Assembly (NCBI GenBank): GCA_949710005.1
Contig: OX453284.1
Coordinates: 6,361,477-6,425,476, forward strand
Reading direction: 5' to 3'
Origin: Ricordea florida
Lineage: Eukaryota > Cnidaria > Anthozoa > Corallimorpharia > Ricordeidae
Length of the DNA: 64,000 nucleotides
The notes under the pieces were generated by a model that saw nothing but the letters and a program-made list of their open reading frames with translations, had not been told where the DNA came from and made no database searches. Both the position numbers and the translations under genes were made by a program. Positions 10,440 through 15,998 of this stretch are shown here, in pieces. Numbering within the stretch: the first letter of the stretch is position 1; the number at the start of each line of letters is the position of its first letter.

Positions 10440-13400
10440 CTAAGCACAGTCGAGTGTAAAAGGGTTCACAAAGTAAACGTGTTGTACAGACACCAACGTG
10501 TAGTCTTTGAGACACCTGGGTGTTGTCTCAGGTTGCATTGACCTCTGTAGAAAAGGAATCAAAACACGAGATTATTTTTTTTCTTATGAATGTGTTGAGC
10601 AGGGCAATGTTTAGAGCATATCTGAGGGAAGAAACAAATTTCGTTATTTATCGATACCTCACCCAAAATGGAAAGGATTTCTTGTCTGTAAAACAATAAG
10701 ATTTGTTACATACCTAGACTTTCACTCAAAAAAGCGAGCACTGTGAATGGTTGATTCTTGGTCACGTGCCCTGAAAAAATTCAAATGTATCCCGACCGGG
10801 ATACAATTGCGCAGTTGTTGCCCGCGCGCCAGTTTTGCTGTCTTTGTTTGTTTGTTTTTGCTATATTCTGTTTCAGGGAAAGTCTAAATATATAACAAAG
10901 CACTTAACGTATGGTCCCTCTGGAAACTAGTTAGTTTTGTTTTTCCTCGAGTTCTGATGTTTCCCTCGACTTCGTCTCGGGAAAACAAAACTAACTGTTT
11001 CCCTCGGGACCATACATTAAGAGTATATTGTTGTATCGCTAGCTTTGGGTTAGATTCCAAAAATGTCATTAAACGGCGTGCCGCCACAAAATTGTGTTAC
11101 TAACTGAGAAATGACTATGATTCAAGTTACGTTATTTTCTGTTTTCCTAGTAACGTCAGTGAAAGGCGCACCACTGACGAAAAGGAAAGCAAAATAAAAA
11201 CAACTCACTGCGAACAGAGAAGGGTGAGGCTTCTCCCAGGCAGCGCTGTTGACGTCAATGGGACCACCCCACCCAAAGCCAACCAAATCCGCGTCCTTGA
11301 ACAGAAGAAATACTGGTAAAGTCTTGTCGCAATCGAGGTCCCGTGAAATATTGTAGTGATAGTGAACACCTGTAAGAAAAACGGAACAATACAGTTATAA
11401 TCTGATGAATTAACCCATCTTAAAAATGCGCACTTATTTTGCTATTTTTCTGTATATTTCAATTTATGTTTCCCTATTTCTATTTTGTTATTTTTTGTTT
11501 ATTTCAATTTATGTTTCCCGCTCCTTTTTTACTATTTTTTTGGTTATTTCACAGTTTATGATACCCATTTCTTGTTTTTGACTACATTTGGTGATTGCGT
11601 CATCCGCAACCCCAACAAAATACCGAAAAATCTGTTAAACCCACCACACTCTTCGTCCTTTCAGAACACTACATAATGTATTGTCTCACATGCATTAACA
11701 GGAGAAAAAAAAATAGCACCAATATTAGACTTTGCACCTACAATGAAATCTTCTCAGCGAAGAAATTAGCAAATCAACAAATCAATTATCAATCTATCGT
11801 TGTAGAGAAACTTCGGTTCAAGATTGGTTGAGTTATTGTGATCCATTTCTTTCGTTTTCCTTCCACTGTTATTTTCTCCTGTTACTGTCCACATATATAT
11901 ATTCGCTCCTGAGCTTCGTAGGTTCAAGTGAAACAGCTTCATTCTTTAATAAGCCAAACATATTCTAGTCCTTTACCCGCGACAGATCAGAAAAGCGTAC
12001 TTTACGTCTCCCGCGTGTGACTAATAAATATCGCGCGCGAGGAAGCGCTGCGCATGCGCATTTCCTCTTGACTACGTGCGTGTGGCTTCACTAGTTCATA
12101 CCTCGCATGGGCACGAACATGGCGGAAACCTAATTTGTATAAGCTTATGACGTCAGCTGAAACCCAAGAATAGGCATTTTTCAGAAGATTTTTCTTTATA
12201 TAGTGTAAATTACCCATGGTTCTGACGCATGTTCCTTTCACCCAAGGGGTGTTAACCAAATGGGACTCTAGCATTGGTATTTTCATCATACAAGAATCCT
12301 TTTTAAGACAACGATTCTGACGAAGATCGTCAAACTGGATCCAAAGTCGGTCTCCTATTGGCGGCTTCATTGACTTATGCTTTTGGCATTTTCCTTTGCA
12401 GGCGCAAATTTTTTTCGGGTCCCGGAAATACGCAGTCAGCGCCATTTGTCCGTTGTCGGTTGGAATCCATGGTGGTTGGTTGTAGCTGGTAGGGTAGGTG
12501 ACTGTACCGTTTATCTGAACATGAAATAAACGAACCGATATTGGTCAGATGCCGTGAACAGCAAGTTGAGCACTCATTAATTTAAAAAAGTACTGTACCT
12601 ACCTACCAACCCTCACGCTTTATGCTCGAGTCTCACGCTTGAGGACTAAGGGACGGACCATTAGAAAAGTGATGGGGGGGGGGTGGGGAATTTTCAGCTT
12701 GCACGAATTTTTTTTTTCGCTCACTACTTGTGCAGGAATTTTTTTTCAGGTGAACCCCTCTGCACGAATTTTTTTTACTACGTGTGAAAAAGTCACAATT
12801 GGACCTTCCTTCTGCATGAATTTTTTTTACCTTCTTCTTTGCATTAATTTTTTTTCTTGGCATTTTCCCTTGCATTAATTTTTTTTTGTTTTTTTTTTCC
12901 CACCCACCCCCCCCCCCCCCAATCACTTTTCTAATGGTCCGTCCCTAACAGACTAAATGCATCGATCTCACGCATCGAGAACAATTTCTTACTCGTGAAT
13001 CAAAAACTTCTCTTCAACAATATAACTTAAGCTTTGACACACTAACAATAACAAATTCGATTTAATATCCCCGAAAATGAAAAAAACCGCTTAATGTTTA
13101 CTTTGTGTTCTAACTGTATCAAATCAGAATTATCGGAATATCTTTCGATCTTTAGGTGGCTAGCTAATCCCGCTTATAGCTAGACGAAAGTCTCACACTT
13201 TTGACTCGTATAATTGAAAGAGAGAGAGATAGATGGAGATCTTAGGGTTCTTGTGACACTCCTTATTGGATAAAATAAAAACAACAGTCCTTTCTGACTA
13301 CACGAGGAATGCAGACGCTCCTTTACATCCATTGTGGAGTAGACACCTCCTTTGTGATTCTGTTGTTTTTGCTTAGAAAGGGAGCAAACGGATGAATAGT

Positions 13401-15265: not shown

Positions 15266-15998
15266 CGAGTGTTGGTCCGGCCGGGGTTTGAACCCGCGTC
15301 CTCCCGGTGCTTTACCAACTGAGCTGACCGGTCGGCCAACAACCGTATCATCCCTGCACGGGACCCTAGTCAGTAATGATTATGCACTTCTTTCTCAGAG
15401 TTAAGTCCGGTTTTTGATCAACGCATTCGCCACGCTGCCCAACACAACTCAGTGCTGGGCTGCCCTTGAAATATAGCTATAATTAAACCATTAATAAACA
15501 TTTTTGCCAAAAAATTAAAGGGCAAACGTGAAAAATGCATTCAGTTTTACGTACATACATCGCCTCATTGAGGTCCCCTTTTATTCAGCCAAAAGTGTGA
15601 CAAAATGTCCATTGTATATTTCATGGAACATGAGTTAGATACGACTTGAAAACCATAGCGCTAACATGACCAAGTTCTACATTAAATTTGGACTCGAAGT
15701 GTTACCATGATTGGTATTAATAACACAAGGACATGAAGCTGGATTCGAAGTCAGTCTTTGCGCGGCCCCAGGAGGTTTTTTTTTGCAACCATCCCCGATT
15801 GTTTTATTGTGCGTGTTATATCAACATGCTTCCTATTTTTTCGTCACAGAAGAAACGAAATGGGAGTCACTGATACATGATAAGTAACGAAAAAGAAACC
15901 GAAAAAGAAAGAAAACTGAAAAAGAAAGTGTGAAACCTACCTGCAGCAAAGCCAGTGGACACTTGAAGAACTGCCACGAAAACGATGAACCAACTCAT
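10440..15998 (-). CDS. Secreted protein of unrecognised family, 7 exons, 278 aa
   Basis: I assembled seven minus-strand exons: 15941-15998, 14232-14255, 13993-14076, 13629-13732, 12214-12514, 11209-11369 and 10440-10544. They total 837 nt, giving 278 residues and a TAG stop. All donors are GT and all acceptors AG, several with strong context (CAG|GTAGG, TACAG). Phases match at every junction. The protein starts with a clear signal peptide (MSWFIVFVAVLQVSTGFA) and has no other membrane span, so it should enter the secretory pathway. Visible features are KWDRL near residue 22, a KICACKGKC cluster (C127, C129, C133), about 11 cysteines in all, and sequons at N92 and N197. The C-terminal half has FLLFKDADLVGFGWGGP and ends with CLKDY...LDCA. 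I do not recognise a named domain. It resembles uncharacterised cnidarian secreted proteins, but that is from memory. Exon 2 is only 24 nt. Confidence 0.85.
10905..11024. repeat. Inverted-repeat element in intron 6 of the secreted gene
   Basis: The sequence tatggtccctctggaaact...agttagttttg at about 10910-10941 is answered by caaaactaact then gtttccctcgggaccata at about 10986-11020 on the opposite strand. The arms of roughly 35 bp enclose a short spacer, so the RNA of this intron could fold into a hairpin. It has the look of a small foldback MITE. No target duplication was identified. Confidence 0.65.
12650..12945. mobile_element. PIF/Harbinger-type MITE, copy 1
   Basis: A 296-bp element has terminal inverted repeats starting gggacggaccattagaaaag and is flanked on both sides by TAA, a 3-bp TWA target duplication typical of PIF/Harbinger elements. 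The interior is a set of short motifs, each a T-run preceded by tgcatgaa, tgcacgaa or tgcattaa. It lies in intron 4 of the secreted gene. The copy at 18891-19165 has the same termini and the reverse-complement interior. There is no transposase frame, so it is non-autonomous. Confidence 0.88.
13421..13616. repeat. Degenerate att/atc microsatellite
   Basis: About 195 bp are built from irregular att, atc and gtc-type triplets (attattatcatcatc and variants). It is in intron 4 of the secreted gene and ends only about a dozen bases from the donor site of exon 4 (exon edge at 13629). Confidence 0.95.
14331..14715 (-). mobile_element. tRNA-Asp-headed SINE, near full length
   Basis: Read on the minus strand, the element starts at about 14715 with a tRNA-like head. 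It has an A box (GTTAGCTCAGTTGG), an anticodon-loop-like CTGTCAA that would carry GUC (Asp) and a B box (GAGTTCAAAACC). A body of about 300 bp follows, including ACTGAGGAGAGTGTGCTGCC and GGGACGTTAAAGATCCCGC. The tail reads TGCGCTATACAAATTCATTATC and ends in ATTATC repeats. It should be transcribed by RNA polymerase III when active. It lies in intron 1 of the secreted gene. Two further copies are at 15081-15337 and 48806-49106. Confidence 0.88.
14960..15040. repeat. Hairpin-forming inverted repeat
   Basis: ggttatccaatagaacataa, a gagagagtcc box, a short loop, then ggactctct and ttatgttctcttgggttatcc form two arms of about 30 bp with few mismatches. It lies between two SINE copies in intron 1 of the secreted gene. 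Confidence 0.7.
15081..15337 (-). mobile_element. tRNA-headed SINE, 3'-truncated copy with damaged head
   Basis: This copy shares the body and head of the 14331-14715 SINE in the same orientation. The A box (GGTCAGCTCAGTTGG) and B box (GGGTTCAAACC) are present, but about 13 nt between them, covering the anticodon arm, are missing. The far 3' part of the body and the tail are absent. Confidence 0.82.

Follow-up and report, generated by a model that had tools for sequence, protein, structure and literature searches.

A seven-exon gene for a probably secreted, cysteine-rich protein in Ricordea florida, with relatives in the same genome

Ependymin-related proteins (PF00811) are secreted animal proteins that resemble in size the protein described here and carry several conserved cysteines. 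The locus that we compare with them lies in a window of 64,000 nt (positions 6361477-6425476 of contig OX453284.1, hereafter C13) of the R. florida genome assembly (538 Mb, 48 contigs). The initial annotation of this window had proposed a seven-exon gene for a secreted, Cys-rich protein without a nameable domain. We find that the gene, read on the minus strand from position 15998, probably encodes a protein that is soluble and secreted and has a disulfide core; this is the firmest statement that can be made on its function.

The gene was rebuilt exactly at 10440-15998 (Table 1). Splice signals and reading phase had been said to fit at every junction, and all six introns are indeed GT-AG, with the exons joined in a single open frame of 837 nt. 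The translation reproduces the announced 278 residues, with 11 cysteines and two sequons (N92 and N197). Secretion and the lack of a nameable domain are likewise supported, by a signal segment in the hydropathy profile and by libraries that gave no credible match. The first 28 nt of exon 1 occur only once in the genome. A polyadenylation hexamer follows the stop codon 33 nt downstream; it is weak evidence alone, because the hexamer is frequent by chance. We set aside two other last exons, starting from the acceptors 10685 (TRNPFHFG, 8 aa) and 10621 (20 aa), as the last exon of the relatives presented below matches the one ending at 10440. Judged from the sequence, the annotated gene model is correct, and it is strengthened by these relatives.

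Table 1. Exons of the focal gene, its polyadenylation signal and the neighbouring relative T (window positions unless a contig is given)
Feature	Position	Length	Strand	Description
Exon 1	15941..15998	58 nt	-	ATG and signal peptide MSWFIVFVAVLQVSTGFAA; ends in phase 1; donor GTAGGT
Exon 2	14232..14255	24 nt	-	microexon; linker GVKWDRLQ; phase 1 to 1
Exon 3	13993..14076	84 nt	-	YPLT..A..GW....C segment with conserved C54
Exon 4	13629..13732	104 nt	-	FTGNRFIYG...LIFDCDGSLGGIQAT
Exon 5	12214..12514	301 nt	-	conserved C127, C186; focal-only Cys 129, 133, 159, 165
Exon 6	11209..11369	161 nt	-	HYHYNIS...DC...PVFLLF...GFGW; conserved C204; sequon N197
Exon 7 and stop TAG	10440..10544	105 nt	-	PRCLKDY...VQHVYFVNPFTLDCA; conserved C255, C277
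AATAAA hexamer	10401..10406		-	polyadenylation signal
T exon 3	875..955		-	E 3.7e-5 with a profile not containing T
T exons 4-7	C13:6351522-6353585			left of the window
T probable exon 1	6255..6333		-	signal peptide MHYKGVILFIGIVFCFG; from the search for hydrophobic ATG exons, with a phase-1 donor; not by homology

A search of the genome with the focal protein (E ≤ 10) gave 17 places. Six are exons of the focal gene, three fall within C13:6351931-6353586, seven within C4:14440653-14493123 on a second contig and one on a third, C5. We discarded the C5 place (E 0.2), which falls on a low-complexity repeat. Exon profiles were run over the regions on C13 and C4, intervening DNA included, and the exon borders were read. 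Four relatives were obtained in this way: T, adjoining the focal gene on C13 with its 5′ end inside the window, and A, B and C, clustered on C4 (C4:14439469-14493128 and C13:6351522-6367809 in all). T, A and B were reconstructed from ATG to stop, with only a weak match for exon 3 of B (E 0.16), while gene C, which lacks exons 1 and 3 in our model and had to be joined over an intron of 24 kb, is the least certain relative. For A, B and T, the first exon comes from a filter for hydrophobic ATG exons that required a GTAA or GTGA donor. For A this filter offered 14449406 and 14446231, of which the nearer was taken; it found no exon 1 for gene C, nor did it return any candidate upstream of the focal gene, which has a GTAG donor. 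Because they were selected by hydrophobicity, these first exons are not independent proof of focal exon 1, nor do their signal peptides lend it independent support.

Further genome searches with B, T, A and C returned no additional member except a C12 match (E 0.077) that contains an internal stop; the number of members, at least five related genes, is a lower bound. Identity to the focal protein is 33% for A, 32% for B, 39% for T and 40% for C, and the closest pair, B and C, is 62% identical. For this pair dN is 0.30 against a dS of 2.0 over 203 codons; although dS is near saturation, these values indicate purifying selection on B and C, the pair for which they were measured. It is nearly certain from these comparisons that the focal gene and its relatives form a gene family, whose copies, by their divergence, are old and do not stem from a recent burst.

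Counterparts of focal exons 3-7 are present in A, B and T, and of exons 4-7 in the partial gene C. The relatives have 18 introns, five each in A, B and T and three in the part of C that was found, all of them GT-AG. All 18 agree in phase with the five corresponding focal introns and 16 fall in the same alignment column; the remaining two belong to T and are offset by one or two columns. After the linker the phases run 1-1-0-1-0 in A, B and T, at homologous columns. For each border in a relative, an AG or GT had to be present at the proper position and in the proper phase. This agreement is strong but not blind, because the borders were chosen near homologous positions. In every intron compared the phases fit the initial annotation, but A, B and T were reconstructed with six exons and not seven.

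The missing exon is the counterpart of the 24 nt exon 2, the weakest link of the gene model. We scored it with splice matrices built from the family's other sites (24 acceptors and 23 donors, none from exon 2). Between exons 1 and 3 there are 80 phase-compatible candidates 15-60 nt long; the exon ranked first among them, and an equally good candidate arose in only 3 of 500 order-1 Markov introns (0.006). Its peptide also resembles the relatives' linkers more than that of any other among the 22 candidates measuring 21-30 nt, although narrowly (score 12 versus 11 for a runner-up that has poor splice sites). Taken together, rank, Markov result and peptide likeness make inclusion of the exon likely. 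The gene could nevertheless be real with this exon absent or only sometimes used, exon 1 being spliced directly to exon 3 to give 270 residues. Skipping would preserve the frame, because the exon is 24 nt long in phase 1-1, and the reconstructed A, B and T have the linker inside an exon 1 of 76-79 nt, whereas the focal gene splits it into 58 + 24 nt. However, inclusion brings the focal N-terminal part to 82 nt, matching the length in the relatives, and with the scores given above this makes habitual or occasional loss of the exon very unlikely.

The expected cysteine count was confirmed but has to be refined, since only six of the 11 are family-wide. Cys 54, 127, 186, 204, 255 and 277 are found in every member covering the column, that of C54 not being covered in gene C, whose model misses exon 3. 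Cys 80, 129, 133, 159 and 165 are present in the focal protein only. Exon 5 carries two insertions absent from the relatives; Cys 129, 133 and 159 are inside insertions relative to all four of them, and Cys 165 stands just after the second. The family alignment (A1) has 38 invariant columns, many of them G, W, Y, F, P or C, and shows no recognisable catalytic pattern by eye. The focal protein helped to define the family, and its fit to the six cysteines and to the A1 blocks is description more than test. In hydropathy plots (Kyte-Doolittle, 19-residue mean above 1.6) the only windows to pass start at residues 1-4, and the whole focal protein contains no second hydrophobic segment above 1.6. 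Judged by hydropathy only, it thus combines an N-terminal signal peptide with the lack of a further membrane segment, as expected for classical secretion. The N197 sequon is kept in three of the five members (A has YNLL and C has YKIS), and that at N92 is limited to the focal protein. Structure prediction of exon 5 alone gave a mean pLDDT of 39.8, too low to say anything about the fold.

Libraries of known families placed neither the focal protein nor its relatives. In Pfam the focal protein had no match at E ≤ 10, bearing in mind that HMMER filters drop most matches above about E 0.1, and a single one of the five members had a weak match (Pro_sub2, E 0.23), none being credible. The focal protein had no match in NCBIfam, and the best PHROGs match of the five members had an E of 0.31 and was not credible either. 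The PDB gave no match by sequence and, by profile, a best E of 1.1 over 37 positions, which is at chance level. Pattern scans of bacterial and archaeal and of viral contigs produced 25, 35, 61 and 39 pattern matches and no relatives; distant relatives could be missed there, because each scan used one or two short patterns. The open literature searched for the family's peptide strings contained no mention of them, and word searches returned nothing about the focal family in titles and abstract beginnings. The family is likely to be catalogued elsewhere already as uncharacterized proteins.

We give an even chance to the reading that the focal gene is functional, belongs to a small and old family of duplicated genes for secreted proteins, and encodes a soluble binding protein that acts outside the cell and has three disulfides in its core. 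The signal peptide would be removed in the endoplasmic reticulum, and the chain would fold into a compact disulfide-stabilised domain; there are six family-wide cysteines, and therefore probably three disulfides. N197 would perhaps be glycosylated, and the protein would then leave the cell. Outside, it would most likely bind a surface, a glycan, a lipid or a partner protein rather than act as an enzyme; binding is weakly suggested over catalysis because no enzyme family was matched. Cys 129, 133, 159 and 165 would probably form two extra disulfides, stapling the two exposed loops of exon 5 together. C80 would be left over, and the odd total of cysteines suggests one unpaired cysteine or an intermolecular bond.

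A probably secreted, Cys-rich product from a small tandem family with diverged copies could also be a component of venom, gland cells or mucus, one copy having acquired a new target through its insertions. We consider this unlikely: no animal toxin or other domain of Pfam matched the focal protein at E ≤ 10, with none credible in the relatives, and copies that are 32-62% identical are old rather than products of a recent burst. One type of matrix protein is acidic. The mature focal chain, by contrast, is net basic by count (31 K+R versus 24 D+E), which makes a structural role in the extracellular or skeletal matrix distinctly unlikely, even though the protein is probably secreted and disulfide-rich and lineage-specific proteins have been reported in animal skeletons, those of corals included (PMC6824150). 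Repeats in the introns might point to a pseudogene in decay or to open frames assembled by chance. Every exon is open and in phase, however, and the relatives have matching introns, so that we give this almost no credence. The repeats are a stretch at about 10690-10800 in intron 6, with at least 41 further matches in the genome at 83-94% identity, and a tRNA-like match in intron 1 (14640-14712, minus strand; Rfam RF00005, 34.9 bits), possibly part of a tRNA-derived SINE, which a diverged stretch at about 15050-15340 resembles by eye.

The secreted binding protein preferred here may have a deeper history. We propose, tentatively, that its unclassified fold arose by internal duplication of a module of about 100 residues, and that the focal copy later gained its split first exon and Cys-stapled double loop. 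The module might read [LI]P..(A/L)...W...C, then GNRY or HYWY, then LLFD..GK.AGIQ or FLLY...L.GFGW, then TAYFTDP..IC or QHVYL..P...C, and each copy of it would possibly be cut by a phase-1 and then a phase-0 intron. Both the motif order and the recurrence of phases 1-0 suggest such a two-module origin. Local hhalign of one half against the other gave the expected register, but without significance (17 of 200 shuffles scored as high). Two other local settings were equalled by 11 and 7 of 100 shuffles; two global settings returned only a trivial 6-column match (34 and 37 of 100 shuffles as high), and a semi-global aligner a trivial end match (208 of 300), so that significance was reached in none of these comparisons. 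The phases 1-0 / 1-0 fit a duplication, but, judged by eye, the hhalign alignment brings only the phase-1 introns close together and leaves the phase-0 introns about 18 residues apart. If real, the stapled double loop would be a new binding surface of the focal copy.

Other features of the window were recorded. On the minus strand at 2834-6199, inside the presumed first intron of T, is a LINE-like element with an open frame of 1121 residues that matches reverse transcriptase (PF00078, E 9.1e-40) and, just below the cut-off, an endonuclease. A strong AT skew (-0.26 to -0.32) marks 34001-40000, where two minus-strand frames, each scoring below its Pfam cut-off, resemble reverse transcriptase (at 36823-37230) and integrase (at 35179-35673); this region is probably a decayed retroelement. 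An open frame at 58844-59230 (plus strand) contains part of GTP cyclohydrolase I (PF01227, E 4.9e-12). Another on the same strand, at 52071-52463, is rich in Glu and Asp, and its only Pfam match, Piezo_TM1-24 (E 0.0051), is below cut-off and looks compositional. Tandem repeats occupy 397-775 (19 copies of a 20-nt unit) and 29536-29966 (1.8 copies of a 237-nt unit).

A multi-exon gene read from raw sequence is thus confirmed by homology as part of a family for which the searched Pfam copy gave no credible match, and its 24 nt exon gains statistical support. A ready profile for tracing the family in other animals and for fold prediction is provided by its six-Cys signature, its fixed introns and the additional cysteines in the loops. 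The finding alone opens no new biological mechanism, and the gene is uncharacterised but otherwise of an ordinary kind. It is like the ependymin-related proteins in its predicted secretion, its size and its several conserved cysteines, but the Pfam searches linked neither the focal protein (at E ≤ 10) nor its relatives to ependymin. Its nearest likeness is within the family. Although A, B, C and T are only 32-40% identical to the focal protein and are without its five extra cysteines and two exon 5 insertions, and although A, B and T have no separate 24 nt exon, all four share with it the blocks GNR...D...GIQ, TAYF..P..IC and YxY...C...FL...FGW and the six Cys positions as far as covered (that of C54 is not in C), and A, B and T also share a probable signal-peptide exon and the succession of intron phases.
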